Below, one piece after another: positions 17,723-33,267 of a stretch of 33,267 bases of DNA. The notes beneath the pieces were generated by a model that worked only from the letters and a program-made list of their open reading frames with translations, was not told where the DNA came from and searched no databases. Numbering within the stretch: the first letter of the stretch is position 1; the number at the start of each line of letters is the position of its first letter. A program made the position numbers and the translations under genes. This stretch comes from Ignavibacteria bacterium (GTDB lineage: Bacteria; Bacteroidota; Ignavibacteria; Ignavibacteriales; Melioribacteraceae), in contig JAAYAN010000188.1 in assembly GCA_012719345.1 (NCBI GenBank), positions 1 through 33,267 on the forward strand. The letters run 5' to 3'.

Positions 17723-19216
17723 TTACTTACTAAAATATCCTTCGTTCCAACGTAATTCTTTTTTGAAATCGGAGATATTTGTTTTAGCGTCAATTGTAAC
17801 CATTTCAATACCAGCCATTTCGCAAAAATCTTCAAGGTATTCGGAAGTAACAACCTGACTGAATGAAGTATGATGAGCTCCGCCAGCAAGTATCCACGCT
17901 CCTGCTCCAATTTCCAGATTTGGTTTCGGTATCCACATTACGCGCGCAACAGGAAGTTTTGGCAGCGGCTGATCGGGTGGAACAACTTCCACTTCGTTAA
18001 CAATCATCCGGAAACGGTTACCCATATCAATAATAGTAGCATTTACCGCCGGACCTGAAGGAACATTAAACACCAATCTCGGCGGATCATCTTTCTTTCC
18101 TATTCCAAGATGATGAGCTTCAAGAGATGGTTTTCCTTCAGCTATGCTTTCACATACTTCAAGCATGTGTGCACCAAGTACTTTCATTCCAGATGGATCT
18201 AAATGATATGTGTAATCTTCCATAAATGAAGTTCCGCCTGGTAAACCTTCAGACATAACTTTCATTGCGCGGACAAGCGCGGATGTTTTCCAGTCGCCTT
18301 CAGCGCCAAATCCGTAACCTTCGTTCATTAGTCTTTGAACAGCAATTCCCGGAAGCTGTTTTAGTCCGTGCAAATCTTCAAATGTTGTAGTAAAGGCTGT
18401 AAAGTTTCCTGATTGCAAAAAGCTTCTCATTCCAGCTTCTATCCTTGCGGCTTCACGCAAATTTGAATATTTGCTTCCATCATTTTTAACATCTGCTGAA
18501 AGAATATATTTTTCAGCATATTCTTTTAATAGTTTATCTATTTCAGAATCGCTTACTTCGTTAACACATTTAACTAAATCGCCTACTCCATACCCGTTTA
18601 CAGAATAACCGAATTTCATCTGCGCTTCAACCTTATCACCTTCGGTAACTGCTACTTCGCGCATATTATCGCCAAATCGTGCAATCTTTCCCTGACGCAT
18701 ATCCTGCCAGCCTGCAGCAGCGCGCATCCAAACGGCAAGTTTTTTCTGAACATTTTCATCTTGCCAGAAACCGACAATTACTTTGCGGTTGATGCCAAGT
18801 CTTGTGCAGATAAACCCAAATTCTCTATCACCATGCGCAGATTGATTAAGATTCATAAAATCCATATCAATCTCGCTCCAAGGAATATCGCGGTTTAACT
18901 GAGTGTGTAAATGTACAAATGGTTTATTCAATATTTTTAATCCTGCAATCCACATTTTAGCAGGTGAAAAGGTATGCATCCAAGTGATTAATCCAATACA
19001 CTGTTTTGCATTATTTGCTTCGAGCATTAAATTATAAATTGCATCTGGTGTTGTAAGAACCGGTTTAAAAACTATCTTTATAGGAAGATTATTGGACTTA
19101 TTCAATCCGTTAACAATTTCCTGTGAGTCTTTTGCAACCTGCTCAAGTGTTTTGGAACCATATAAGTGCTGGCTTCCTGTAGCAAACCAAACTTCAAAAT
19201 TTTGAAAATGATTCAT
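17723..19216 (-). CDS. araA: L-arabinose isomerase
   Basis: The enzyme converts L-arabinose to L-ribulose in the cytoplasm, the first step of the AraBAD pathway. The 497-residue length is standard. The N-terminus ([14 protein letters not shown]) and the metal/catalytic region are clear: [15 protein letters not shown] and [12 protein letters not shown] hold the two Glu ligands, EAHHLGIG one His, and GGAHHTSF the last His. It is the final gene of galM-symporter-araB-araD-araA, 15 bp after araD, and is closed by a strong terminator. Confidence 0.97.
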
Positions 19217-19231
19217 ATATTTTTCCTTATT

Positions 19232-19918
19232 TTATTTCTGACCGTAATAAGCGTTTGGTCCGTGTTTACGTTGGTAATGTTTATTTAAAATATAATCCGG
19301 CAAAACCGCAGAAGGATTTAATTGCAAAGTAAATAGAGCCATTTCAGCAACACGCTCAAGTGTAATACTATTTTTAACAGCATCTATAGCATTTTTCCCC
19401 CACGAAAATGGAGCGTGACCGGCAACTAAAACAGAAGGAATGCTTACAGGATCCAGACTTTTAAATCGTTCTACAATTATTTTTCCCGTATTTAATTCAT
19501 AATTTTCATATACTTCATTTTCTGTAAGCTGACGTGTAACTGGAATTTTCCCAGAAAAATGATCGGCATGAGTAGTACCCAAACAATTGATTTCGGCATT
19601 TGCCTGGCAAAATACAGTTGCAAATTTACTGTGAGTATGAACAACAGCCCCAATTTTGGGAAAAGCTTTATAAAGTTCTATATGTGTTGCTGTATCAGAC
19701 GAAGGCTTTTTATCTCCGCTTACAACTTCGCCTTTAAGATTTACAATTACCATGTCGTCAGCTTTCATTTTATTGTAATCTACACCGCTCGGTTTGATAA
19801 TCACAACGCCTTCAGCGCGATTAATTGCGCTTACATTCCCCCAAGTGAGTAATACAAGTCCGGAATTAACAAGTGAAATATTTGCTTCAAATACTTCATT
19901 CTTTAATTCTTCAAACAT
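19232..19918 (-). CDS. araD: L-ribulose-5-phosphate 4-epimerase
   Basis: The enzyme epimerises L-ribulose 5-phosphate to D-xylulose 5-phosphate, the last step of the arabinose pathway. The 228 residues carry the class II aldolase/epimerase signatures: LTWGNVSAI near the N-terminus, KPSGVDY, the zinc ligands in VVHTHSKFAT, and the third zinc His in AGHAPFSWG. The ATG overlaps the araB end by 8 bp, and the GGGGGA inside the araB tail serves as its ribosome site, so the two are translationally coupled. Confidence 0.96.
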   Translation of the reverse strand: MFEELKNEVFEANISLVNSGLVLLTWGNVSAINRAEGVVIIKPSGVDYNKMKADDMVIVNLKGEVVSGDKKPSSDTATHIELYKAFPKIGAVVHTHSKFATVFCQANAEINCLGTTHADHFSGKIPVTRQLTENEVYENYELNTGKIIVERFKSLDPVSIPSVLVAGHAPFSWGKNAIDAVKNSITLERVAEMALFTLQLNPSAVLPDYILNKHYQRKHGPNAYYGQK

Positions 19919-21617
19919 TATTCCCCCTTGCTTTATCGCGAATATTTAATAAATCCTTCATAACATTATTCATCTTACCTGTCCAATTTTCAGTTCCAAA
20001 TGAATCATAAAGCTGTCTGTAAAGCTTATAAAGTTTTTTGTAGACTTCAACATTTTCGGGAATAGGGGTATATTCTTTGCTTATAGAAGTCATTGTTCTT
20101 TTTGCTTGGTCAATAGAATCATATCCACCGGCATTTTTTCCAGCGGCAACTGCTGCAAATATTCCTGCTCCCAATGCGGGTGTTTGCTCGCTGCCGGATA
20201 TTTTCATCGGTCTGTTAGCAATATCAGCATATATTTGCATTAAAATTGGACTTTTAATTGCAAGACCTCCGCAATTTATAACATCATTAATTTTTACTCC
20301 GTATTCTTCAATCCTATCAATAATTGCGAGGGCTCCAAATGCAGTTGCTTCCATCAGAGCGCGATAAATTTCGTGCGGCTGTGTATGCAAAGTCTGACCA
20401 AGAAGTAATCCGGTTAGTCTTACATCAACAAGAATTGTACGATTTCCGTTATTCCAGTCAAGTGCTAATAAACCGCTTTCTCCCGGTTTTAACTCTGCTG
20501 CTTTTTTATCAAGATTTTGAAATTTTTCACCATTTGAACTTCCATAACTTTCAGGGACAAGATTATTTACAAACCAAAGGAAAATGTCACCTACTCCGGA
20601 TTGTCCGGCTTCAATTCCATAATATTTATTCATTACCGAACCATTTACAATACCGCATACTCCAGGAATATCTTTTAATTTTTGAGATACCGGAGAAACC
20701 ATAATATCGCAAGTACTGGTTCCTATAATTTTCACTAACGTTCCTTCTGTAATTCCAGCACCAACAGCTCCCATATGAGCATCAAATGCTCCTACAGAAA
20801 CTATTACTTCTGTTGTAAGTCCGAGTTTATCTGCCCATTCTTTCGAAAGATTTCCAGCTTTTTGTTCAGCTGTATAAGCTTCCGAATAAAGTCTTTCCCT
20901 TAAATCTCCTAATCCTGGGGATAGGGTATTTAAATATTCTTCATCCGGTAATCCGCCCCATTCTTCGCTGAACATTGCCTTGTGCCCGGCAGCGCATATA
21001 CTTCTTTTTAGTTTCAGCGGATCTTTTTCCCCTGTAAGCGAGGCTGTTATCCAGTCGCATATTTCAACAAAACTGAATGCAGCATTAAACACTTCCGGAT
21101 TTATTTTTTTTAATCTTAGTATTTTGCTCCAAAACCATTCAGAGGAATAAACACCGCCGATTTTGGCTAGATATTGAGGACGTATTTTTGCAGCTGTTTC
21201 AGTTATGAAAGCGGCTTCCTCGTAACTTGTATGGTCTTTCCAAAGCCAGCACATTGCATCGGGATTTCCGCTGAATTTTGGATTAAAACACAAAGCTTCA
21301 CCATTTTTATCTACAGGCATAGGACTGCTTCCGGTTGTGTCTACACCGATGCCTATAACATCTTTCTGATTAAATTCTGCATTATTTTGCTTTGCCTTTT
21401 CTATTGCCCCTTTAATTGTTGTTTCAATTCCAATTATATAATCAGCCGGATTTTGTCTTGCTAAATTCGGATCTTTATTGTCAACTATTACACCGGCGCT
21501 TCCCGAGGGATATGGAAAAACAAATGAGGCTACTTCACTTCCGTCTTCTACTTTCATTATTAAAGAACGGCACGAATTTGTGCCGTAATCTAAACCAATT
21601 ACGTATTTATTTTTCAT
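19911..21617 (-). CDS. araB: Ribulokinase (L-ribulokinase)
   Basis: The enzyme phosphorylates L-ribulose with ATP. The 568-residue FGGY-family protein begins YVIGLDYGTNSCRSLI (phosphate-1 loop), contains GIGVDTTGSSPMPVD (substrate and catalytic region), and has the C-terminal FGGY segment with INCGGLAIKSPILMQIYADI and the adenosine-binding GAGIFAAVAAG. It overlaps araD by 8 bp downstream. Upstream, a hairpin separates it from the symporter gene, so its expression may differ from that gene. Confidence 0.96.
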   Translation of the reverse strand: MKNKYVIGLDYGTNSCRSLIMKVEDGSEVASFVFPYPSGSAGVIVDNKDPNLARQNPADYIIGIETTIKGAIEKAKQNNAEFNQKDVIGIGVDTTGSSPMPVDKNGEALCFNPKFSGNPDAMCWLWKDHTSYEEAAFITETAAKIRPQYLAKIGGVYSSEWFWSKILRLKKINPEVFNAAFSFVEICDWITASLTGEKDPLKLKRSICAAGHKAMFSEEWGGLPDEEYLNTLSPGLGDLRERLYSEAYTAEQKAGNLSKEWADKLGLTTEVIVSVGAFDAHMGAVGAGITEGTLVKIIGTSTCDIMVSPVSQKLKDIPGVCGIVNGSVMNKYYGIEAGQSGVGDIFLWFVNNLVPESYGSSNGEKFQNLDKKAAELKPGESGLLALDWNNGNRTILVDVRLTGLLLGQTLHTQPHEIYRALMEATAFGALAIIDRIEEYGVKINDVINCGGLAIKSPILMQIYADIANRPMKISGSEQTPALGAGIFAAVAAGKNAGGYDSIDQAKRTMTSISKEYTPIPENVEVYKKLYKLYRQLYDSFGTENWTGKMNNVMKDLLNIRDKARGNNV

Positions 21618-21650
21618 TTTATTTCTGATTTTATTGAGATTTATTTAAAT

Positions 21651-21681
21651 AAAAAACAGGCATCTTGTAAAACAAGATGCC
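21651..21681 (-). terminator. Hairpin with T-run between symporter gene and araB
   Basis: On the minus strand GGCATCTTGT pairs perfectly with ACAAGATGCC around a 3-base loop (21659-21681), followed by TGTTTTTTATT. This is a classic intrinsic terminator placed inside the operon after the symporter gene. It may reduce transcription into araB or stabilise the upstream message. Confidence 0.75.
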
Positions 21682-21691
21682 TCACAATTTA

Positions 21692-23446
21692 TCAACCTGT
21701 AAATGAGAGATATGCAATCAATATTAAAACAACTACTAAAACTGATAACATAACATCTATCTTTGTCCAACTTGCCCTTGTTTCTTCTTTATCTGCTTCC
21801 GATGTTGTTCCATAAGTCAAACCGCTTATCTTTTCATAAGATGGCGCTTCAGTCATAAGACTTACAATTACCATTACAGCAACACATATAACAAAAATAA
21901 GCAAGCTGTAATATTGAAAGAAAATGTTATTTACTATCCAGAAGAATGAACCTTCCGAATAGACAAATCCGTCAATCAGTTTTGTAGGAGTATCAACCGC
22001 AAGTCTGAAAAGACCTAGACCGAAACCGGTAATTAAAGCAGCCAAACATCCTTTTGCATTTAAACGTTTGTAAAACACACCAAGGAAAAACACAACAAAA
22101 ATAGGAGGAGCAAGATAAGCCTGAACTCCTTGCAGATAATCGTAAAGTCCTCTTCCTCCTTTTATAACAGGAATCCAAAGCAATCCTACAATCACCATAA
22201 CAGCAGTTGCAACACGTCCTACCCAAACCATCTTTTCCTGAGTAACATCTTTTTTAATTCTTGCATAAAAATCTATTGTAAACAATGTTGCACAAGCATT
22301 AAAAACACCGGCAAGAGAACTCATCAATGCTGCCAGCAAGCCTGCAACAACTAAACCTCTTACACCTACAGGTAAAACATTTGCAACCATAAGAGGGAAA
22401 GCGCTTTGAGCATTTTCTCTGATTACTTGCCCGTCTGCGCCAATTAAAGCCGACTGCAAAGCAGGGATTTTTCCGCTTTGAGCTAAAGCCATGCATATCA
22501 TTCCAGGAATGATAAAAATAAACACAGGTAATAGTTTGAAAAATGAAGCAGCTATTGAGCCTCTTCTTGCTTCTGTTTGATTAGGAGCAGAAAGTGCACG
22601 CTGAACAATATATTGATCAGTTGTCCAATACCACAAACCTATAACCGGAGCAGCAAAAAGCATTCCCAACCAAGGATAATGATCGTTAAAATACCAAGCC
22701 ATTTTACCTGCTTCGCGAACAGGAGCCCAAGTTCCTTCTACTCCGGCCGGAACCAGCGGTTTCCATAAATTAAACATATCCGATCCAAGAACTGCTCTAA
22801 GTTCAGACCAGCCGCCTAAAGCTTCTAATCCGAAAAATGTAACCAATGCTGAACCGATAATCAAAATTACAGTCTGTAATGCTTCAGTATAAGCAACAGC
22901 AGCCATTCCACCAAGAATTGTATAAAGTCCGGTAATTACTATTACAAGAATAGAACCGACCCAGAAGCTGTCGAGACCCATAAAATTCATTTCAGGCAAT
23001 AACACTGCAAATACAACACCGCCGGCAAATATTCCAACAGCAATTTTTGTTAATACATAAGCCACTAACGAAATTATTGAAAGAACTGTCCGTGATGCCG
23101 GTGAAAATCTTCTTTCAAGAAATTCGGGCATTGTAAATACTTTAGAACGCATATAAAAAGGCACCATAACCCAGCCAAGTACCAGCAAACACCAAGCGTG
23201 TAATTCGTAGTGGGCCATAGCCACACCGTCTGTAGCACCTGATCCAGCAAGTCCAACTAGATGTTCGGAACCAATATTTGAAGCAAAGATTGATGCACCG
23301 ACAATAAACCAACCAAGATGTCTTCCTGCAAGGAAGTAATCATCAGTTGTTTTTTTCTGCCGTTTAATTACCCACCAGGCGAGCCCTAATATTACTGCAA
23401 AATATAAAGCTAAAACTACCCAGTCAAAAGGTTGTAAAATTCCCAT
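21692..23446 (-). CDS. Sodium:solute symporter (SSS family), probably an arabinose or hexose transporter
   Basis: This 584-residue protein has about 14 predicted membrane helices. It shows SSS/SGLT signatures: DDYFLAGRHLGWFIVGAS, the IGSEHLVGLAGSGA segment, GLYTILGGMAAVAYTEALQ, and WYWTTDQYIVQRALSA. It resembles bacterial SGLT-type sugar symporters such as vSGLT. Its position between galM and araBDA argues for Na+-driven uptake of L-arabinose, possibly galactose or glucose; specificity cannot be read from the sequence. An AGGGAA ribosome site precedes the ATG, 23 bp after galM. Confidence 0.9.
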   Translation of the reverse strand: MGILQPFDWVVLALYFAVILGLAWWVIKRQKKTTDDYFLAGRHLGWFIVGASIFASNIGSEHLVGLAGSGATDGVAMAHYELHAWCLLVLGWVMVPFYMRSKVFTMPEFLERRFSPASRTVLSIISLVAYVLTKIAVGIFAGGVVFAVLLPEMNFMGLDSFWVGSILVIVITGLYTILGGMAAVAYTEALQTVILIIGSALVTFFGLEALGGWSELRAVLGSDMFNLWKPLVPAGVEGTWAPVREAGKMAWYFNDHYPWLGMLFAAPVIGLWYWTTDQYIVQRALSAPNQTEARRGSIAASFFKLLPVFIFIIPGMICMALAQSGKIPALQSALIGADGQVIRENAQSAFPLMVANVLPVGVRGLVVAGLLAALMSSLAGVFNACATLFTIDFYARIKKDVTQEKMVWVGRVATAVMVIVGLLWIPVIKGGRGLYDYLQGVQAYLAPPIFVVFFLGVFYKRLNAKGCLAALITGFGLGLFRLAVDTPTKLIDGFVYSEGSFFWIVNNIFFQYYSLLIFVICVAVMVIVSLMTEAPSYEKISGLTYGTTSEADKEETRASWTKIDVMLSVLVVVLILIAYLSFTG

Positions 23447-23469
23447 AATTATTCCCTTATTTTAATTAA

Positions 23470-24615
23470 TTATTTAATGAGAAATCTGTAAATTGTGTGC
23501 TGGCTGTATGTTTCCCCAGGATTAAGTCTTACTGAAGGAAAATTTTCTTTATTAGGTGAATCCGGATAATGCTGGTTTTCAAGACAAAGAGCTGTTCTGT
23601 GCTGATATTTAATTCCATTTTTTCCGGTAAAAGTACCATCGATAAAATTCCCTGAATAAAACTGTATTCCGGGTTCATCCGATAAAACTTCCATTAACCT
23701 GCCGCTTTCTGCGTCGTAAAGCGTACAAACTTTTTTAACAGTTCCGTCAGCATTATTAATTACCCAGTTATGATCGTAGCCTTGTCCGTTTTTTAATTGT
23801 TCGTTTTCATCATTTATTCTTAAACCGATTTTAGTTGGTTTTCTGAAATCGAAAGGAGTATTTTGAACAGAATCTAATTTGCCTGTTGTAATTGATTCGC
23901 TGTCAATCGGAGTATAATAATCGGCATCAATCCACAATTCATTATCCAATATAGTTTTTTCCATATTGCCGCTGATATTAAAATATGAATGCTGAGTCGG
24001 ATTAATAATTGTCGGTTTATCTGTTGTAGCTGTATATTTTATATCAAGTTCGTTATTATTTGTTAAAGTATAAACTACCTGAATTTTCAGATTTCCAGGA
24101 TACCCTTCTTCTCCGTCTTTGCTTAAATATTCTAATTTTACAGAAGGACCGTCTGCAGTCATTTCAGCTTTTGAATTCCATAAAGCTTTATAAAAGCCAA
24201 CATTACCGCCATGTAAATGATTGTTGCCATCGTTAACAGTAACCTGATATTCTTCATTATCAATTTTGAATTTTCCTTTGCCAATACGGTTTCCGTATCT
24301 GCCAACTATTGTTCCAATAAAAGTTTTGTTATTAACATAGCCTTCAAGAGAATCAAAACCGAAAACAACATCTTCCATTTTCCCGTTTTTATCCGGTACG
24401 CAAAGAGAAACAACAATTGCTCCGTAATTTGTTATTTTAGCTGTTGCTCCTTTTTCATTTTTCAATGAATATATTGTAACAACCGAACCATCGTTTAATT
24501 TTCCGAATTCTTTTTCGTCAATCATCTTTTCCTCAGTGTTAGAATTGTTTTTGCAAGACAAAATTAAAAAACTCGTAATAAATACAATTGTAATAATACT
24601 ACTTAACTTAATCAT
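23470..24615 (-). CDS. galM: Aldose 1-epimerase (mutarotase), lipoprotein form
   Basis: The enzyme interconverts alpha and beta anomers of aldoses. A lipoprotein signal (MIKLSSIITIVFITSFLILSC, Cys21) shows that the protein is anchored outside the cytoplasm, unlike the cytoplasmic E. coli enzyme. GalM features are complete: GRYGNRIGKGKF, DGNNHLHGG, the catalytic His in NPTQHSYFNISG, GYDHNWVIN, and the catalytic Glu in CLENQHYPDSPN. It heads the galM-symporter-araBDA block, with AGAGGAAG before the ATG, and probably supplies the anomer that the symporter takes up. Confidence 0.93.
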   Translation of the reverse strand: MIKLSSIITIVFITSFLILSCKNNSNTEEKMIDEKEFGKLNDGSVVTIYSLKNEKGATAKITNYGAIVVSLCVPDKNGKMEDVVFGFDSLEGYVNNKTFIGTIVGRYGNRIGKGKFKIDNEEYQVTVNDGNNHLHGGNVGFYKALWNSKAEMTADGPSVKLEYLSKDGEEGYPGNLKIQVVYTLTNNNELDIKYTATTDKPTIINPTQHSYFNISGNMEKTILDNELWIDADYYTPIDSESITTGKLDSVQNTPFDFRKPTKIGLRINDENEQLKNGQGYDHNWVINNADGTVKKVCTLYDAESGRLMEVLSDEPGIQFYSGNFIDGTFTGKNGIKYQHRTALCLENQHYPDSPNKENFPSVRLNPGETYSQHTIYRFLIK

Positions 24616-24712: not shown

Positions 24713-25873
24713 TTAAATTTGTGAACATTTCTGGTTTAATTTTCTGAATGACCGCAATCCCATCCCTTTTTCTTTATTAAAATATCTTGATATATGTTCA
24801 ATGTCGGTAAAGTTAAATATCTGGGTAATTTCCGAAATTGTAAGATTTGTTTCGATTAACAATTTTGAAATGGATTCTACTCTTACGCGCCTTATTTCAT
24901 CGGATATTGTTCTGCGAATTGTTTTTTTAAAATGCAGCTCAAGACTTCTGCGGCTAAGTTTTGTACATGCCACAACATCGTCCACCGTTATTTTGCTCTT
25001 TTGATTATTCCGTATAAATCTTAATGCTTTTTTTACATCTTCATTATTTATTGCTAATAAATCGGTTGATTGCCTTTGAACAACATGGGTGCCTGTAACA
25101 ACTATTTTCTGCCCGTTTATTTTTTCACCGCTCATCAGTTTATCCAGCAATGATGCCGCATAAAATCCTGCGTTCTCGGTATTAAGCGCAATACTTGTTA
25201 ACGGAGGATCGCTAAGTTCACAGACGATTGAATCGTTATCTACGCCGATTACTGCAATTTCTTCGGGAATTTTAATCCCTAAAACTTTACAAGCTTCCAA
25301 AATATGCAAAGCCCTGTCGTCATTACAAGCCATTATTCCTGCGGGTTTCTGCAAATCAGTAAGCCATTCCTGAAGCGCCGAAAATTCATTGTACCACAGA
25401 TCCGGATTTTTAATTGCTGTAGTATTAAATGCCGAAACATTATAACCCGCATTTGAAATAAATTGAGAAAATGCTTTTTCGCGATCGCCTGACCAGCCGA
25501 AATCACTGAATCCGCAAAAAGCAAAGTTTTTCAGCCCTTTGCTTAAAAGGTGTTCTCCCGCCAGTTTTGCAATGATGCTTGAATCGGTTACAACGGTAGG
25601 GACATTCTCATCAAGTTCCTTTTCGTGATGGACAAATATCATCGGCACTTTTATTTTGGAAAGATCTTGTATATCCATTGAGTCGCGCAAAATTATACCA
25701 TCAACATCTTGATGTATTTTTATGGCATCAGGATGTTTAATTCCGCTGGCTTCCCAATAAAATGTCCACCCACCTACATTTCGGGAATACCTTACTATTC
25801 CATATAATAATTCCCGCCCAAATGTTCTTGACGATTCTATTAACAGCAAAACTTTTTTATAATTTGAAGTCAT
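24713..25873 (-). CDS. XylR-type AraC-family transcriptional regulator
   Basis: The 386 residues comprise a LacI/PBP1-like sugar-binding domain (about 1-270, with VLLLIESSRTFGRELLYGI and ACNDDRALHILEACKVLGI) and a C-terminal AraC-type double helix-turn-helix (about 285-382, with VDDVVACTKLSRRSLELHF). This is the architecture of E. coli XylR, an activator that binds a pentose. Lying just upstream of galM-symporter-araBDA, it is most likely the arabinose-responsive activator of that block. The gene follows the LacI regulator by 20 bp on the same strand, so the two regulators are probably co-transcribed. Confidence 0.88.
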   Translation of the reverse strand: MTSNYKKVLLLIESSRTFGRELLYGIVRYSRNVGGWTFYWEASGIKHPDAIKIHQDVDGIILRDSMDIQDLSKIKVPMIFVHHEKELDENVPTVVTDSSIIAKLAGEHLLSKGLKNFAFCGFSDFGWSGDREKAFSQFISNAGYNVSAFNTTAIKNPDLWYNEFSALQEWLTDLQKPAGIMACNDDRALHILEACKVLGIKIPEEIAVIGVDNDSIVCELSDPPLTSIALNTENAGFYAASLLDKLMSGEKINGQKIVVTGTHVVQRQSTDLLAINNEDVKKALRFIRNNQKSKITVDDVVACTKLSRRSLELHFKKTIRRTISDEIRRVRVESISKLLIETNLTISEITQIFNFTDIEHISRYFNKEKGMGLRSFRKLNQKCSQI

Positions 25874-25893: not shown

Positions 25894-26922
25894 TTATTTA
25901 GAATTAAAATTTATGCAAGTTCCTCGTAATATTAAATTTGTATCTATCTCTATTTTTTTCGGAACGTAGTTTTCGCGGTTATTCATATTATCTATGAGAA
26001 GTTGAACAGCATTTTGGGCAATTTGACTAACTGGCTGATTTATACAGCTGAGCGGAGGTGAAAGAAATTCCTGGACTTTAGTATTTCCGAAACAAATTAC
26101 ATCAATATCTTCCGGAATTTTTAATCCGAGTTCGCGGGCAGCCATATAAACACCCAGGGCAACAGGATATGTTACAGCAAAAATTAAATCGGGCAAACGT
26201 TTTGCTTTATAAAGTTCCATAAAAGTATCGTACCCGTGTTTTTCACCAAATCCACCGCGCGAAACCCAATACGGCATAACAGGCACGTTATTATCTTTCA
26301 TAGCCTGTTCGAAACCTCTGAATCTTTCCTGACCGATGTTGATATCCGAATAGCCGGCGAAGTGTGCAATTTTTTTATATCCTAAATTAATAGCGTGGGT
26401 AATTGCTTTATATGCACCCCCGAAATTATCAGCTTCAACAATATTTATGTTATCCAAAGGCGGAATTCTGTCGATAAAAACGACTGGAATTCCCCGTTGT
26501 ATGAGAGTTCTAAAAACCGAAAAATCCTTAGTTTCCTGAGTGATAGAAATTATTAAACCGTCAACCTGCATCGAAAGCAGCGTCTGGATATTCTTTTTTT
26601 CCTTTTCGGGATTTTCCTGCGATACAGTAAGAATGACTTCATATTTTTTTTCGTTTGCATAATCGTAAATGCATTCTGTAATATCTCCGAAAAAGAAATG
26701 TGCCACTTTAGGAACCACAACCCCAATCATATGGGATTTTTTTGATGAAAGATTGCGTGCCAGATAATTAGGAGTATAACCCATTTCCTTTGCAACTGAT
26801 TTTATTGTTGCTGTCATCTGCTTGGAAATATCGGAATGATTCCGCAATGCCTTAGATACAGTAACTACAGAAACATTTAGTTTTTCAGCGATATTTTTTA
26901 ATTTGACCGGTTTATTTTGCAT
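25894..26922 (-). CDS. LacI-family transcriptional regulator
   Basis: The 342 residues have an N-terminal LacI helix-turn-helix (VKLKNIAEKLNVSVVTVSKAL), a hinge helix region (YTPNYLARNLSSKKS) and a periplasmic-binding-protein-like effector domain (IGVVVPKVAHFFFGDI; VDVICFGN in the form IDVICFGN). It starts 2 bp after the kduD stop, which makes it part of the kduI-kduD transcript. It is therefore a likely repressor of uronate genes, answering to a pathway intermediate such as a keto-deoxy sugar acid, though the ligand is inferred. Confidence 0.92.
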   Translation of the reverse strand: MQNKPVKLKNIAEKLNVSVVTVSKALRNHSDISKQMTATIKSVAKEMGYTPNYLARNLSSKKSHMIGVVVPKVAHFFFGDITECIYDYANEKKYEVILTVSQENPEKEKKNIQTLLSMQVDGLIISITQETKDFSVFRTLIQRGIPVVFIDRIPPLDNINIVEADNFGGAYKAITHAINLGYKKIAHFAGYSDINIGQERFRGFEQAMKDNNVPVMPYWVSRGGFGEKHGYDTFMELYKAKRLPDLIFAVTYPVALGVYMAARELGLKIPEDIDVICFGNTKVQEFLSPPLSCINQPVSQIAQNAVQLLIDNMNNRENYVPKKIEIDTNLILRGTCINFNSK

Positions 26923-26924
26923 TA

Positions 26925-27686
26925 TTATCTTCCCATCCAGCCGCCATCAACTGTAATGACGGTACCGTTTACATAATTAGAAGCTTCCGAGCAAAGATAA
27001 AGCGCAGCACCGGCTAAATCTTCAGGATTTCCCCATCTTCCGGCGGGAATTCTTTCGAGAATTGCACTATTCCTTGCCTTATCTTCACGAAGCGCTTTGG
27101 TGTTATCTGTTTCTATATAACCGGGAGCAATTGCATTAACATTAACTCCTTTTCCCGCCCATTCGTTTGAAAATGCCATTACAATTTGTTTGATGCCTCC
27201 TTTTGCAGCGGCATAAGCAGGAATTGTAATTCCTCCCTGAAAAGATAAAAGCGAAGCTGTGAATACAATTTTTCCGCTTCCCCGCTTTATCATATCTTTT
27301 CCAAATTCGCGGGTTAGAATAAATTGAGAATTCAGATTTACTTCAATTACCTTGTCCCAATATTCATCAGGATATTCTGCAGCAGGTTTGCGCAAAATCG
27401 TTCCGGCATTATTAATAAGAATATTAATGATGGGAAATGTGTTTTTCACTTTCGAAATAAATCCATATAAACTTTTCCTGTCCGAAAAATCGCAGGTATA
27501 TCCGGTAAACTTCTTTCCAAGCGATAAAATATATTTTTCTGTTTCGGTAAAATTTCCGCTGGCAGAAACTCCGATAATGTCCGCTCCGGCTTCGGATAAA
27601 GCATAAGCCATTGCCTGTCCTATTCCCCTGCTGCAGCCGGTTACCAATGCAGTTTTTCCTGTAAGATTGAATTTATCCAGAATCAT
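26925..27686 (-). CDS. kduD: 2-dehydro-3-deoxy-D-gluconate 5-dehydrogenase (KduD-type SDR)
   Basis: This SDR reduces 2,5-diketo-3-deoxy-D-gluconate to 2-keto-3-deoxygluconate. With the ATG at 27686 it is 253 aa, the length of E. coli KduD, and a GAGG lies eight bases upstream; the ATG two codons earlier overlaps that site. Motifs: TGCSRGIGQAMA (cofactor loop), NNAGT, the Ser in TASLLSFQGG, and the YAAAK catalytic Tyr/Lys. Its place 5-11 bp after kduI and before a LacI gene supports the uronate role over a general SDR. Confidence 0.9.
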   Translation of the reverse strand: MILDKFNLTGKTALVTGCSRGIGQAMAYALSEAGADIIGVSASGNFTETEKYILSLGKKFTGYTCDFSDRKSLYGFISKVKNTFPIINILINNAGTILRKPAAEYPDEYWDKVIEVNLNSQFILTREFGKDMIKRGSGKIVFTASLLSFQGGITIPAYAAAKGGIKQIVMAFSNEWAGKGVNVNAIAPGYIETDNTKALREDKARNSAILERIPAGRWGNPEDLAGAALYLCSEASNYVNGTVITVDGGWMGR

Positions 27687-27697
27687 TTTCATTTCCT

Positions 27698-28531
27698 CTA
27701 TTTCAATTCATTCATTTTTATCGGATCCATATCATCGAAAACCTGGTTTTCGCCGCCCATCGCCCAGATAAATGAATAATTTTTAGTTGCACATCCGGCG
27801 TGCATCGACCAGCTTGGCGAAAGAACCGCCTGTCTGTCGCGGACAACAATATGCCTTGTTTCCCCGGCAGAACCGCAAATATGGAATACGACAGAATCGC
27901 CGGTAAGATTGAAATACATATAGACTTCCGAACGCCTGATGTGAGTGTGTCCCGGCATAGTGTTCCAGACGCTTCCTTCTTCCAATTCTGTAAGTCCCAT
28001 TACAAGCTGGCAGGTCTGAACATTTCCGGGATGAATATATTTATAAATTGTCCGTTTATTTGCTTCCTTAAGCGAACCCAGATTCACGGGAGAAGCTTCG
28101 GAAGGCTTTATCTGCTTAACAGGATATTCTTTGTGAGCGGGATAGCTTACAAAATAAAACTGCGCCGGAAAATTCTCATTATCGCTTTCAAAAAGAATTT
28201 CCTTTGAACCTTTACCAATATAGAGTGCGTCTTTATTTTCCATAACGTGTATAGTACCATCGACTTTAATTTTACCCGAATGCCCGATATTTATAATTCC
28301 GATTTCCCTTCTTTCGGTAAAATAATCAGCAGCCATTTCTTTTTTTTCGGCTTCAAGTTTAAGTATTTTTCCCGAAGGCACTGCCGTTCCGGTAATTGAA
28401 CGGTCAATATCGGAATATGTCATAGTTATTTCATTTACTTCGAAAAGATCTTCTATTAGAAATGAATCTCTCAATTCATCCGTACCCATTTGTTTGAATC
28501 CTTTCATATCCGGTGAAAATCTCACAACCAT
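27698..28531 (-). CDS. kduI: 5-dehydro-4-deoxy-D-glucuronate isomerase
   Basis: KduI isomerises 5-keto-4-deoxyuronate, formed from unsaturated uronates released by pectate or glycosaminoglycan lyases, to the substrate of KduD. The 277-residue length matches E. coli KduI (278). The cupin metal site is visible in MPGHTHIRRSEVYMYF (two His and one Glu), with a further His in SWSMHAGCATKNYSFIWAMGG. A GAGGT ribosome site precedes the ATG. It is followed within a few bases by kduD. Between it and the upstream gnd gene lies a 118-bp gap containing a repeat-built hairpin. Confidence 0.95.
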   Translation of the reverse strand: MVVRFSPDMKGFKQMGTDELRDSFLIEDLFEVNEITMTYSDIDRSITGTAVPSGKILKLEAEKKEMAADYFTERREIGIINIGHSGKIKVDGTIHVMENKDALYIGKGSKEILFESDNENFPAQFYFVSYPAHKEYPVKQIKPSEASPVNLGSLKEANKRTIYKYIHPGNVQTCQLVMGLTELEEGSVWNTMPGHTHIRRSEVYMYFNLTGDSVVFHICGSAGETRHIVVRDRQAVLSPSWSMHAGCATKNYSFIWAMGGENQVFDDMDPIKMNELK

Positions 28532-28649: not shown

Positions 28650-30104
28650 TTAAACAATATATGTCGATGACGCTGTATCGCCGCCTTTACCTGTCCAGTT
28701 TGTATGGAAAAATTCTCCACGCGGTTTATCGGTTCTTTCGTACATATGCGCGCCGAAATAATCCCGTTGAGCCTGAAGAAGATTTGCCGGGAGACGCTCG
28801 TTTCTGAAACCGTCGAAATAATTTAACGCCGTTGTAAGAGCGGGACACCAGATTCCGTTTGTAACGGCTGCGGCAATTACTCTGCGCCAGCTTTCCTGTG
28901 CCGATTCAATTTTTTCTTTGAAAAACGGATCAAGCAACAGATTTGAAAGATTAGGATTTTTATCAAAAGCTTCTTTAATTTTACCAAGAAATACTGAACG
29001 GATGATACAGCCGCCGCGCCACATTAAAGCAATTCCGCCATTGTTTAGATTCCAGCCGTATTCTTTTGCTGCATAACGCATAAGAACATAACCCTGCGCG
29101 TACGATACCATTTTTGAAGCATACAATGCATTTTTCAAATCATCGATAAATGCTTTTTTATCGCCCTCAAATTTTGGTTTTGGTCCTGCAATCTTTTTGG
29201 CAGCGTCAACTCTTTCATCTTTCATTGCGGAAAGACATCTTGCAAAAACTGCTTCGCCGATTAATGTAAGCGGAACGCCGAAATCGAGCGCCGAAACTGC
29301 CGTCCATTTCCCTGTTCCTTTCTGTCCGGCTGTATCAAGAATTTTATCGACAAGCGGCAAGCCGTCGGCATCTTTAAATGCAAGTATATCGCGCGTAATT
29401 TCAATTAAATAACTGTCAAGTTCGCCTTTATTCCAATCTTTAAATACTTCGTGCATTTCATCGGCAGTCATTCCTAAAAGGTCTTTCATTATTTGGTAAG
29501 CTTCGCAGATAAGCTGCATATCGCCGTATTCAATTCCGTTGTGAACCATTTTAACGAAATGCCCTGCGCCGTTTTCGCCAACCCAATCGCAGCAGGGAAC
29601 GCCGCCATCAACTTTTGCGGCAATACTTTGGAAAATAGGTTTAACGTGTTCCCAAGCTTTTGGAGAACCGCCGGGCATAATTGAAGGTCCGTTTAAAGCT
29701 CCTTCCTCGCCGCCCGAAACTCCTGTTCCGATAAATAAAAATCCTTTTTCTTCAAGATATTTTGTTCTGCGGATTGAATCCGGGAAGTGCGAGTTTCCGC
29801 CGTCGATTATTATATCGCCTTTATCGAGATGAGGAATAAGCTGCTCGATAAAATCATCGACAGCTTTGCCGGCTTTTACCATAAGCATAATTTTGCGCGG
29901 ACTTTGAAGATTTTCAACAAGTTCCTCGATGGAATGTGCGCCGATAATATTTTTCTCTTTGCCCCTTCCGTTTACAAAATTTTCAACTTTTTCAACCGTT
30001 CTGTTGTAAACCGCAACCGTAAATCCTTTGCTTTCCATATTAAGCACAAGGTTTTCGCCCATTACTGCAAGGCCCACCAACCCGATATCTGCTAATTTTT
30101 TCAT
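28650..30104 (-). CDS. gnd: 6-phosphogluconate dehydrogenase, decarboxylating
   Basis: The enzyme oxidises 6-phosphogluconate with NADP+ to ribulose 5-phosphate and CO2. At 484 residues it is a full long-form Gnd. IGLVGLAVMGENLVLNMESKG is the cofactor-binding loop with GLAVMG, VYNRT the cofactor-selecting strand, GVSGGEEGALNGPSIMPGG the substrate-binding segment, and FVKMVHNGIEYGDMQ contains the catalytic Lys and the His/Asn. It lies 24 bp after the PdxB-like gene. Placing it among uronate genes suggests that gluconate is an intermediate of this locus. Confidence 0.96.
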   Translation of the reverse strand: MKKLADIGLVGLAVMGENLVLNMESKGFTVAVYNRTVEKVENFVNGRGKEKNIIGAHSIEELVENLQSPRKIMLMVKAGKAVDDFIEQLIPHLDKGDIIIDGGNSHFPDSIRRTKYLEEKGFLFIGTGVSGGEEGALNGPSIMPGGSPKAWEHVKPIFQSIAAKVDGGVPCCDWVGENGAGHFVKMVHNGIEYGDMQLICEAYQIMKDLLGMTADEMHEVFKDWNKGELDSYLIEITRDILAFKDADGLPLVDKILDTAGQKGTGKWTAVSALDFGVPLTLIGEAVFARCLSAMKDERVDAAKKIAGPKPKFEGDKKAFIDDLKNALYASKMVSYAQGYVLMRYAAKEYGWNLNNGGIALMWRGGCIIRSVFLGKIKEAFDKNPNLSNLLLDPFFKEKIESAQESWRRVIAAAVTNGIWCPALTTALNYFDGFRNERLPANLLQAQRDYFGAHMYERTDKPRGEFFHTNWTGKGGDTASSTYIV

Positions 30105-30128
30105 ATTAATTCTCCATTTATTTTTAAT

Positions 30129-31274
30129 TTAATTTTTTAATTTGAACTGAAATCCAGCGGCAATTTTATTTATTTCATCGTTTGAGTTTGTCAAGTTTAT
30201 AAAATAGTTGTGAAATTCTCTTCGCACAGGATAATTGCCCCGCTGTTCTTCGAATGCTTCCGGCGAACTTCTTAAATTCCTGTCGTCATTTCGTATATCA
30301 TAAGTTTTAATAATTGCTTCGCAAATTATTTCCTGCGGAGTTTTATTTTTGCAATCAATGTTGATATTCAAACCGTCGGCAGGTTCGGAAATACTTGCAG
30401 GATTCCAGTTATCTTTCATCCCGAGATTAAAGAAATTGTTAATTGCATTTACGCAAACTGCCGTTCCGTTTGCTTTACCATCCGCAGAATATCCGGCAAT
30501 ATGCGGTGTTCCAATATCTACAAGTTTGTGAAGCTCGGAATCAATCTCCGGCTCTCCTTCCCAAACATCAAGCGCGCAAAATGAAACTTTGCCGGACTTG
30601 ATTGTATTTTTTAACGCCGAAGTTTTTACGACTTGTCCGCGCGAACTGTTAAAAATGACTTTTGAATTTTTAAATTTTTCGAAGAAAGTTTCATCGGCAA
30701 GATGATAAGTTTTATCAATCCCGCTTTTATTTAACGGTACGTGAAATGTGATAATATCGCTTTTTTCAATAAGCTCATCGAGTTCTGTAAATTTTTCATT
30801 TCCTTCTTCACGCGCGCGCGGCGGGTCGCATAAAAGGACTTTCATTCCTAACATTTCGGCAATTCCTGCAACTTTACTTCCAACATTTCCAACACCGACA
30901 ACGCCGATTGTTTTATCCGTAAAGTTAAAAATTTGCTTTTGCGATAGAACAACCAAAGCCGAAGCGATATATTGGCGAACCGAAGAAGAGTTGCAGCCGG
31001 GAGCGTTAAGCCACTTTATTCCAGCCTGCTCGCAATAATTTGTATCAATGTGGTCATAACCGATTGTAGCTGTAGTGATTAGTTTCACGCTGCTTTTCTC
31101 AAGCAAATCCGCGTTGCAGATTGTACGCGTCCGAGTAATGATTGCATCAGCATCTTTAACAATTCCTTTTGTTATTTCACTGCCCTTATGATATTCAATA
31201 TCTGCATAATCCTCAAAAACTCCTTTGAGGAAAGGGATTTTGTCATCGGCAATTATTTTTATTCTTTTTCCCAT
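30129..31274 (-). CDS. PdxB-like D-2-hydroxyacid dehydrogenase (4-phosphoerythronate dehydrogenase family)
   Basis: This 381-residue dehydrogenase shows the PdxB N-terminus (IIADDKIPF, then GSEITKGIVKDADAIITRT), the Rossmann loop GVVGVGNVGSKVA, the RGQVV catalytic Arg region, a Glu, and the GTPHIAGYSADGK His. A DUF3410-like dimerisation tail has YDIRNDDRNLRSSPEAF and YPVRREFHNY. In vitamin B6 synthesis PdxB oxidises 4-phospho-D-erythronate. The start codon overlaps the previous stop (TAATG), so it is coupled to the LarA homologue. Inside a sugar-acid operon it may act on a related phosphorylated or free aldonate; which one cannot be decided here. Confidence 0.82.
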   Translation of the reverse strand: MGKRIKIIADDKIPFLKGVFEDYADIEYHKGSEITKGIVKDADAIITRTRTICNADLLEKSSVKLITTATIGYDHIDTNYCEQAGIKWLNAPGCNSSSVRQYIASALVVLSQKQIFNFTDKTIGVVGVGNVGSKVAGIAEMLGMKVLLCDPPRAREEGNEKFTELDELIEKSDIITFHVPLNKSGIDKTYHLADETFFEKFKNSKVIFNSSRGQVVKTSALKNTIKSGKVSFCALDVWEGEPEIDSELHKLVDIGTPHIAGYSADGKANGTAVCVNAINNFFNLGMKDNWNPASISEPADGLNINIDCKNKTPQEIICEAIIKTYDIRNDDRNLRSSPEAFEEQRGNYPVRREFHNYFINLTNSNDEINKIAAGFQFKLKN

Positions 31275-32545
31275 TATTTAAACCTATCCTTAAAAGCCCA
31301 TAAACCAAGCGCCGGATTTGAAATAAAAAATATTTCTTCACCATCCGGCATTGTATTAAATCCGTCTGTCAGTTTTTCGGGATTGTATTTTTTCATCATT
31401 TCATCAAGAGGAGCATAGCTGAAATTTACGCTTTCAATTTCCTGCTTTGTTAAATTTCCTGGGCAATATGTAATTTTAAATCTGTTTTCCGAAGAACCGT
31501 GAATTAAATGCGCGGCAGCGCTGAGATTATTTTTTAACTCCTTATTTTCTTCAACAAAATTTAATACTTCCGGAGTTGTTACATATCCGTATTTCCTGAT
31601 TAGCCTGTCAATTTCCTTATCCTCGCCGAATTCTTTTAATCCCGGAGCAAGAACAATTAATTCACCGCCGTCGTCAATAGCCATCCGCGTTCTGTAAATA
31701 CTTTTATTTCCAAGCCAGGTTGATTTAAATTCTGACGGATCGAGATAAACCACTACTTTTTTCAGCGGTTTTTCGAGCATAATAAAATTTACTTTTAACG
31801 ATAATTCAGAAGCAAGTCTGAAACATTCGAAATCATCCCCGATATATAGTCCGCGCAAAACGAGATTATTGTTTTCGTCTTTGGAAATTACAGTCTGGAT
31901 ATATAAAACCGGCAGGTTTTTAGCAAAATTATCCGATGCGTAATTCAGAACTTTCCGGACCGCAGTATCGGCTCGTCCCATAATTCTTTCCATTCCGTAA
32001 ACTGCACCGAGATAGTGACTTTTATTTATCCCGTCTCTGCCGCCCGTTCCCACAAATATATTTTTATTGTAATTTGCCATCCCTATTACTTCGTGAGGAA
32101 CAACCTGCCCGATTGAAAGAATCAAGTCGAAATTTCCTTCAACCAGCAATTTATTTACCTGCGCCGGCCACGAATATGAAACGCGTCCTTCCGAAACTTC
32201 TTTTAGAAATTCAGCAGGAACTTCGCCGAGTGTTGTCAAATCTTCTTTCCATCTGTGAACGCGAAAAAGATTTTTAGGAATATCCCCGAACATTTCTTCA
32301 ATTTCCCTTTCGGTCATTGCTGCGTGCGTGCCGAGCGCCGGAAGAATATCCGTCATTTTTTCTTTAAAATACTGATACGAATAGTTTGTAAGTTCTCCAG
32401 CTTTTGAATGAAACCGCGTAAAATCCGGCGGGATTGCCAAAACTTTATTCACTCCGCCAATTTTATCAAAAACCGACCATAGAATATTTTTCACTTCTTC
32501 TTTTGTAAAAACTTTATTTTCGCTGCCTTCGGCAAAATATAACAT
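31274..32545 (-). CDS. LarA-family nickel-pincer-dependent 2-hydroxyacid racemase/epimerase
   Basis: The 423 residues match the LarA superfamily (DUF2088): PPDFTRFHSKAGELT (compare the DxTRP region of LarA), ALGTHAAMTEREI (ALGTH motif), QVVPHEVIGMA (second catalytic His region) and VGTGGRDGINKSHYLGA, where a Lys is available for the cofactor link. LarA enzymes invert C2 of hydroxyacids using the nickel-pincer nucleotide. The published superfamily includes D-gluconate 2-epimerases, and beside a mannonate-type SDR and gnd that activity is the best guess. LarB, LarC and LarE, which make the cofactor, are not in the window. It is coupled by one shared base to the PdxB-like gene. Confidence 0.82.
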   Translation of the reverse strand: MLYFAEGSENKVFTKEEVKNILWSVFDKIGGVNKVLAIPPDFTRFHSKAGELTNYSYQYFKEKMTDILPALGTHAAMTEREIEEMFGDIPKNLFRVHRWKEDLTTLGEVPAEFLKEVSEGRVSYSWPAQVNKLLVEGNFDLILSIGQVVPHEVIGMANYNKNIFVGTGGRDGINKSHYLGAVYGMERIMGRADTAVRKVLNYASDNFAKNLPVLYIQTVISKDENNNLVLRGLYIGDDFECFRLASELSLKVNFIMLEKPLKKVVVYLDPSEFKSTWLGNKSIYRTRMAIDDGGELIVLAPGLKEFGEDKEIDRLIRKYGYVTTPEVLNFVEENKELKNNLSAAAHLIHGSSENRFKITYCPGNLTKQEIESVNFSYAPLDEMMKKYNPEKLTDGFNTMPDGEEIFFISNPALGLWAFKDRFK

Positions 32546-32577
32546 AATTTATCAATCCTTAAAAAATCGTTTAACTT

Positions 32578-33267
32578 TTAAACTCCGCTGTAAGCGTTAA
32601 ATCCGCCGTCAATCGGTATTATTACGCCTGTAATAAATTTTGCAAGATCCGAAACTAAAAACAGCAAAGTTCCAACCAATTCTTCCGGTTCGCCAAATCT
32701 TCCCATCGGCGTGCCGTCAATAATTTTATGTCCGCGTGGTGAAAGCTGGTTTGTTTCTTTATCAATCAATAAAAATCTGTTTTGAGCAGTCAGGAAAAAC
32801 CCGGGAGCAATTGCGTTTACGCGTATGTTCAATTTTGCAAAATGCACGGCAAGCCATTCTGTTAAATTATTTATGCTTGCTTTTGCTGCAGAATATGCAG
32901 GAATTTTCGTTAACGGTCTGAAAGAATTCATTGAAGAAATATTTATTATTGAACCGCCTCTGCCAATCATATCCTCTGTAAAAATCATTGTCGGCAAAAC
33001 CGTTCCTAAAAAGTTCAAATCGAAAACTCTTCTGAATCCTTCAATATCCAGCCCGAAAAATCCTTTGGAAAGATCGCCGATATTTTCTTCAGATAAAAAC
33101 TCGAGCTGCGTTGTAGCAGTCGGGGCATTTCCACCGGCGCCATTAATTAAAATATCAACTTTACCGAGTTTTTCATTTACTTCTTTTTTTGCAGTTAACA
33201 AGGCTTCCCTGTCAAGCACATTGCCAAAAACTGCAATCGTGCTTTCGGGAAATCCGGCGTTAACCAT
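32578..33267 (-). CDS. SDR-family oxidoreductase, probably D-mannonate/fructuronate type (N-terminus outside window)
   Basis: The visible 229 residues lack the N-terminal GxxxGxG cofactor loop, so the gene continues past the right edge and the Met at the edge is internal. What remains is the rest of an SDR: DILINGAGGNAP, NISSMNSFRPLTKIPAYSAAK with catalytic Ser, Tyr and Lys, and the C-terminal GVIIPIDGGFNAYSGV. The sequence (GNAPTATTQ, GFFLTAQNRFLL) resembles SDRs found beside uxuA in Bacteroidota and annotated as D-mannonate oxidoreductases. Position upstream of the LarA homologue supports a role in uronate/aldonate metabolism. Other sugar-acid substrates remain possible. Confidence 0.8.
   Translation of the reverse strand: MVNAGFPESTIAVFGNVLDREALLTAKKEVNEKLGKVDILINGAGGNAPTATTQLEFLSEENIGDLSKGFFGLDIEGFRRVFDLNFLGTVLPTMIFTEDMIGRGGSIINISSMNSFRPLTKIPAYSAAKASINNLTEWLAVHFAKLNIRVNAIAPGFFLTAQNRFLLIDKETNQLSPRGHKIIDGTPMGRFGEPEELVGTLLFLVSDLAKFITGVIIPIDGGFNAYSGV

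Follow-up and report, generated by a model that had tools for sequence, protein, structure and literature searches.

A group-18 LarA homologue in a probable hexuronate operon of an Ignavibacteria genome in which larB, larC and larE are not detected

The stretch of DNA analysed here (the window, 33,267 bp) is the entire contig C231 of a 4.02-Mb draft genome of an Ignavibacteria bacterium (G000; listed completeness 100%, contamination 2.53%). Its right end carries, on the minus strand, a gene for a homologue of LarA, in line with genes for an SDR of the mannonate oxidoreductase type and for 6-phosphogluconate dehydrogenase (gnd). The evidence favours a reading in which this end of the window carries the lower part of an operon for the catabolism of hexuronates, sugar acids of plant polymers, by a group-18 epimerase route into the pentose phosphate pathway. 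Along this route, the SDR would convert D-fructuronate to D-mannonate, the LarA homologue would invert C2 of a hexonate, most likely turning D-mannonate into D-gluconate, a kinase of the PfkB family, whose gene lies on another contig, would make 6-phosphogluconate, and gnd would decarboxylate this product to ribulose 5-phosphate. The epimerase route would stand in for mannonate dehydratase. The analysis establishes which families the proteins belong to, how well the operon and the key residues are conserved and which genes are present or absent; the substrates, the sequence in which kinase and epimerase act and the use of a nickel-pincer cofactor are inferred. To our knowledge, larB, larC and larE are the only known genes for the synthesis of the nickel-pincer nucleotide (NPN), and profile searches detected none of them in this genome. 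New here are the group-18 operon with a PfkB kinase and, more importantly, the occurrence of a LarA enzyme where its cofactor genes are not found.

The LarA homologue and its operon

The LarA homologue (31274..32545, minus strand, 423 aa) matches PF09861 and, judged by its profile score, is a clear member of group 18 of the LarA superfamily: it reaches 682.9 bits against NF052594 (“NPN_18_hexonate”, cut-off 500), and the next-best model scores 40.2. The product name of this family is “nickel-dependent putative hexonate epimerase”, and in the accessible text of PMC7583248 a hexonate substrate for group 18 is a hypothesis. The nearest solved structure, both by sequence and by predicted structure, is the gluconate epimerase GntE2 of Thermotoga maritima (4nar). 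An AlphaFold2 model of the homologue (pLDDT 89, pTM 0.87) has 4nar as its best match (Z 39.8, 2.3 Å over 389 residues, 26% identity) and has the LarA-type fold, with a Z of 26.7 against LarA itself (5huq).

Immediately upstream lies the SDR gene (32578..33267, minus strand), of the fructuronate reductase type and similar to UxaD and UxuB, which scores 325.1 bits against NF006132 (“D-mannonate oxidoreductase”, cut-off 281). It covers only profile positions 60–280, because the gene runs off the contig end and its 5′ part is missing. Downstream of larA, and overlapping its stop codon by one base, is a gene for a 2-hydroxyacid dehydrogenase of the PdxB type (4-phosphoerythronate dehydrogenase; 30129..31274, minus strand; NF001309, 443.9 bits vs. 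434; PDB relatives 3oet, 5dt9 and 2o4c). It is followed by gnd, encoding an NADP-dependent, decarboxylating enzyme (28650..30104, minus strand; TIGR00873, 786.6 bits vs. 426.7). The original prediction, which had placed the SDR, larA and gnd in line, is borne out for all three genes but had left out the PdxB gene between larA and gnd. The tight spacing of the four genes (a 32-bp gap, the one-base overlap and a 24-bp gap) makes a single transcription unit likely. One idea for the PdxB-type gene is that it may serve vitamin B6 synthesis from pentose-phosphate carbon.

Relatives of this locus were taken as the best 80 of 567 found in a scan of a genome collection, a sample skewed towards close kin. 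The 78 loci counted comprise the window and 77 of the 80 that were fetched, the other three having no larA open reading frame (ORF) longer than 300 aa. Aligned to 4nar, the catalytic residues D41, H74, H151 and K281 correspond to D72, H108, H174 and K298 of LarA, and the NPN-site residues R44, K161 and H177 to R75, K184 and H200, the roles of these residues being those given in the accessible text of PMC7583248. All seven are kept in 78/78 group-18 sequences. The available part of PMC11770544 describes a signature of gluconate 2-epimerases (GntE), namely E, V, A and H at the LarA positions F175, F176, W358 and T359. When mapped through the sequence alignment to 4nar, rather than by superposition on LarA, this signature is matched by E152, V153, A345 and H346 of the homologue, and the four residues are kept in 78, 78, 77 and 78 of the 78 sequences, respectively. 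According to what could be consulted of PMC7583248, the W358 counterpart in GntE2 is N348; this residue aligns with the identical N340 of the homologue.

Conservation of the neighbourhood

Neighbours of larA were counted on the same strand within six ORFs and named by the best-matching family, in loci of which many are shortened by contig ends. A mannonate-type SDR (one that resembles the window's SDR more than KduD) and gnd each occur in 61 of the 78 loci, and a PfkB kinase of the type found in the slot between SDR and larA occurs in 44. Less frequent are Eda (26), UxaC (24), UxaE (20), a KdgK-type kinase (16), PdxB (16), KduI (14), KduD (14), a HAD protein (11), a pyrophosphate (PPi)-type phosphofructokinase (9) and UxuA (6). 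The association of SDR, larA and gnd is not due to chance. The common order is SDR, PfkB-family kinase, LarA homologue and gnd; gnd directly follows larA in 44/78 loci, and the slot-type kinase directly adjoins it in 38/78. In a count that does not separate the mannonate-type SDR from KduD or the slot kinase from KdgK, the slot holds a PfkB kinase alone in 29 loci, nothing in 15 (the window included) and other arrangements in 17, while 17 loci have no SDR within four ORFs upstream of larA. The fullest operon seen, in the single-contig genome G203, reads MFS, UxaC, UxaE, Eda, SDR, PfkB, LarA homologue, gnd, transketolase, KduI and KduD.

In some relatives (L003, 7736–9994; L008; L011; L016; L038; L141, 7872–8762), a PPi-type phosphofructokinase homologue and a HAD protein occupy the slot before larA instead of the PfkB kinase; the HAD protein of L028 and that of L141 adjoin a PfkB kinase. 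A possible explanation is non-orthologous replacement of the kinase.

The position of gnd directly after larA in so many loci points to 6-phosphogluconate. It speaks against the idea that the substrate of group 18 is a different 2-hydroxy acid from uronate breakdown, such as altronate or allonate, with the adjacency of gnd reflecting co-regulation; so do the match of the SDR to the mannonate model and the GntE-like signature residues. This idea draws on the related group 19, for which the accessible text of PMC7583248 reports a high Michaelis constant for mannonate and a suspicion of a different native substrate, and on the PdxB gene, whose presence in 16/78 operons is unexplained. We regard a different substrate as improbable, though less so than the reversal of the reaction considered below.

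The kinase and the fate of mannonate

The original prediction called for a gluconate kinase outside the window. A GntK-type gluconokinase was not found in the genome with TIGR01313 (FGGY-type gluconokinases were not searched for); this model also gives no match in T. maritima and, therefore, does not cover every gluconokinase. What the genome does carry is a copy of the slot-type PfkB kinase on another contig (C155:5882-6961; 637.5 bits), 82% identical to the copy in Alkaliflexus, together with a separate KdgK on contig C95. The expectation of a kinase thus held, in the form of a candidate from a different family.

A UxuA-type mannonate dehydratase (PF03786) was likewise not found in the window's genome, which fits the proposed bypass of this enzyme, although enolase-type dehydratases were not searched for. 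Reference proteins for UxaC, UxaE, Eda and UxuA found no match on the window or on contigs C95 and C155, the rest of the genome not having been searched for UxaC, UxaE and Eda. With no UxuA found, mannonate would most obviously leave by the larA route. A wider comparison used 51 carrier genomes of group 18, comprising the window's genome and those of 50 of the 80 loci, picked mainly for long contigs; PF03786 UxuA is absent from 27 of them. These absences, which concern PF03786 and not the other dehydratase types, are difficult to reconcile with the reverse reaction, in which gluconate would be converted to mannonate and would feed mannonate dehydratase and the 2-keto-3-deoxygluconate (KDG) pathway. 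The conserved neighbour of larA is also gnd (61/78) and not uxuA (6/78). Those six loci, the UxuA-family genes of the remaining 24 carriers (some of them distant or partial matches) and the presence near larA of a KdgK-type kinase in 16/78 loci and of eda in 26/78 would fit the reverse direction, which we nevertheless consider very improbable.

The proposed route resembles one already described. The sequence of fructuronate, mannonate, gluconate, 6-phosphogluconate and ribulose 5-phosphate in T. maritima is credited to Rodionova et al. 2012 in the accessible text of PMC6978723, and the activity of GntE on D-mannonate was measured in vitro in 2020, according to the available part of PMC7583248, which also gives the kinetics of GntE2. 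The T. maritima regulon gnd-uxaR-uxaE-uxaD-gntE-gntK is described in what could be consulted of PMC3750489. As in that UxaE/UxaD/GntE/GntK route, an SDR mannonate oxidoreductase, a LarA-superfamily epimerase and gnd share one operon, mannonate would enter the pentose phosphate pathway, and UxaE occurs in the corresponding operon in some of the window's relatives. The two systems differ in the epimerase, which belongs to group 20 in T. maritima and to group 18 here (26% identity in the structural alignment), in the kinase, which is GntK there and of the PfkB family here, and in the cofactor genes, as T. maritima gives a LarC match whereas larBCE are undetected in the window's genome. A literature search, which missed most subscription papers, found no report of kinase or epimerase genes of this kind.

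The order of phosphorylation and epimerization might also be inverted. If the PfkB kinase made 6-phosphomannonate, group 18 would act as a 6-phosphomannonate 2-epimerase and give 6-phosphogluconate directly. Both activities were seen in extracts of Lactobacillus suebicus, without assignment to genes in the accessible text of PMC6978723. The pathway described there for L. suebicus also reaches 6-phosphogluconate and gnd by an isomerase route without mannonate dehydratase, but it phosphorylates first and continues by phosphoketolase. Where the kinase is present, its gene mostly sits between those for the SDR and the epimerase, as it would if gene order followed the pathway, but gene order is weak evidence. 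N280, next to the catalytic lysine, is found in 78/78 group-18 sequences in place of G286 of GntE2, a further point in favour; the signature residues, however, match GntEs whose substrate is free mannonate, and in the window's genome the kinase is detached from the operon. Prior phosphorylation is, in our estimate, the strongest of the alternatives to the preferred route, with perhaps a modest chance of being correct.

Several observations weigh against the preferred route, in which epimerization of free mannonate comes first. The kinase is encoded away from the operon in the window's genome, one of the 15 loci with nothing between SDR and larA; the slot kinases of three representative loci all stay below the NCBIfam cut-offs, and the nearest solved relative of this kinase, for which gluconate and mannonate are candidate substrates, is a KDG kinase (2afb). 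UxuA-family genes do occur in the 24 carriers mentioned above. The GntE2 loop GFSGGxK is replaced by GMANYNK in group 18 (with F for Y in 1/48 sequences), and this loop falls in the least certain, low-confidence part of the structural model. The literature search, in the sources available to it, found no assay of any group-18 enzyme. Finally, profile searches of the window's genome detected no larB, larC or larE, leaving the cofactor supply unexplained.

A LarA enzyme without larBCE

The original prediction stated that the LarA homologue needs LarB, LarC and LarE, and this is the part that the genome does not support. There is no larC match in the window's genome; the best larB match reaches 36.4 bits (cut-off 175) and the best larE match 37.4 bits (cut-off 150), both partial. 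We read the weak larB matches, and the weak larE ones among the matches listed, as PurE and other PP-loop proteins. The name of NF052594 implies nickel and NPN, whereas the known genes for NPN synthesis are undetected here. This state of affairs is not peculiar to one genome. Among the 51 carriers, larC is found in 28, larE above its cut-off in 27 and larB above its cut-off in 28, and all three are absent in 21, the window's genome included. Outside these 21, G043 has larB and larE but no larC, and G045 has larB only. The larC-positive exceptions are G019, with no larB match, G029, whose larB (173.6 bits) falls just below 175, and G033 and G039, whose LarE matches (126.9 and 132.2 bits) do not reach the cut-off.

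The same pattern appears in a sample of 391 genomes of the class, profile-searched for larC but not for larB or larE, of which 67 carry group 18 above the cut-off. Within the window's order, larC occurs in 1/32 group-18 carriers, against 29/35 elsewhere in the class (Fisher p = 7 × 10−12, uncorrected for relatedness); 6/35 carriers outside the order are likewise without larC. No larC match is found in the single-contig carriers G163, G203 and G233, which belong to the window's order. Incomplete assembly as the cause of the missing larBCE is rejected on the strength of these three genomes, the 100% completeness listed for the window's genome and the 21/51 negative carriers.

It was also considered that larBCE might serve only other LarA paralogues. 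Against this, group 18 is the sole PF09861 match in 19/28 larC-positive carriers, which makes it probable that larBCE, where they exist, provide NPN to group 18. In the larBCE-negative carriers, 21/21 likewise have a single PF09861 match, the group-18 protein. The HAD protein near larA is not supported as a substitute cofactor gene, as it occurs near larA in 7/21 negatives and 2/27 positives (48 loci, counted by hand). In Alkaliflexus (L142:2700-5133), the LarE and LarB of a larE-larB-larC cluster are divergent, and its LarC, of 287 aa, is short and covers no more than the first 227 of the 375 profile positions; a second, canonical LarE lies elsewhere in that genome.

The enzyme is under purifying selection in the larBCE-negative lineages. 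By simple Nei-Gojobori counts, in which several synonymous rates are near saturation, the ratio of nonsynonymous to synonymous substitution rates (dN/dS) is 0.029–0.089 in the six pairs with a larBCE-negative member for which it could be computed, a seventh pair being saturated. It is 0.010–0.030 in three pairs including larBCE-positive genomes, with a fourth saturated, and 0.041 in one pair of unknown larBCE status; the negative pairs are thus somewhat less constrained than the positive ones. None of the 21 negative sequences lacks any of the seven catalytic and NPN-site residues. A search for changes that mark these sequences (a different majority residue, above 80% in one set and above 60% in the other) returned only column 103 (Leu vs. 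Val), which is no active-site residue, and such marker changes are, therefore, rejected. Nor do the negative sequences form one clade, as a quick tree requires nine changes of larBCE status, two of them forced by well-supported branches.

Taken at face value, undetected cofactor genes in 21/51 carriers could mean that the enzyme is a non-functional relic in these lineages, whatever its substrate. The low dN/dS values in six negative pairs, the complete set of active-site residues and the intact operons of the three single-contig genomes without larC leave this reading barely credible. The retention of both gene and active site without larBCE instead favours continued use of NPN, or of a close analogue, over loss of function. 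The epimerase probably still uses a hydride-transfer cofactor of the nickel-pincer type, as the full LarA active site is kept, but LarB, LarC and LarE are apparently not what makes this cofactor in the window's lineage. Across much of the window's order, we put it at about even that a LarA-superfamily epimerase works without these three proteins, either because it is NPN-independent while keeping the LarA active site, or because NPN is made or acquired by an undiscovered route.

An uncoupling of the two gene sets has been noted before in the opposite sense. According to the accessible text of PMC11796402, about 15% of genomes, from cyanobacteria and others, have larBCE but no larA; the window's genome is the mirror image, with a LarA homologue but no detected cofactor genes. 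The literature search, with the same gap in subscription papers, found no report of LarA without larBCE.

The original prediction had counted the absence of larBCE or of a gluconokinase from the genome against its route. Literally, this is the situation found in the searches for larBCE and for a GntK-type gluconokinase, yet the route is not refuted, because a PfkB kinase fills the place of the kinase in many relatives and the enzyme is intact and constrained in many genomes without larBCE. What the searches do show is that the cofactor is supplied in another way than expected. The passage from fructuronate to ribulose 5-phosphate fits the conserved operon, the GntE signature, the lack of a PF03786 uxuA and the presence of a kinase in the genome. 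The earlier idea was thus sound in outline and its route is likely, although it is not new.

Other genes of the window

All genes of the uronate unit lie on the minus strand and run from right to left from the contig end. Beyond gnd, the unit contains kduI, for 5-dehydro-4-deoxy-D-glucuronate isomerase of the unsaturated-uronate branch (27698..28531, minus strand; NF002091, 411.9 bits vs. 250), and a kduD-like SDR gene, for 2-dehydro-3-deoxygluconate 5-dehydrogenase (26925..27692, minus strand; TIGR01832, 329.1 bits, slightly below the cut-off of 338.85). A LacI-family regulator (25894..26922, minus strand; PF00356/PF13377) perhaps controls the unit, to judge from its position.

Next to it, a XylR-like regulator (24713-25873, minus strand) is a fusion of a LacI-type sensor domain and a DNA-binding domain of the AraC type. 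The adjoining genes (17723-24615, minus strand) we take to be an arabinose-like unit with an isomerase, an aldolase-type epimerase and an FGGY kinase, named from their translations. After these arabinose-like genes, still within the same interval, profile matches identify an SSS symporter and an aldose 1-epimerase.

Implications

With the group-18 operon, a pathway of the Thermotoga type would also be present in Ignavibacteriota, Bacteroidota, Planctomycetota and further groups, served by a candidate PfkB-family gluconate or mannonate kinase. The operon may also point to the kind of genes left unassigned in L. suebicus. If a LarA enzyme does work without LarB, LarC and LarE, the current rule that these proteins are required by LarA enzymes would no longer hold. 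In many genomes of the order, single-contig ones among them, a conserved LarA enzyme is separated from the known NPN genes, which raises the questions of whether the enzyme needs NPN and, if so, who makes it.

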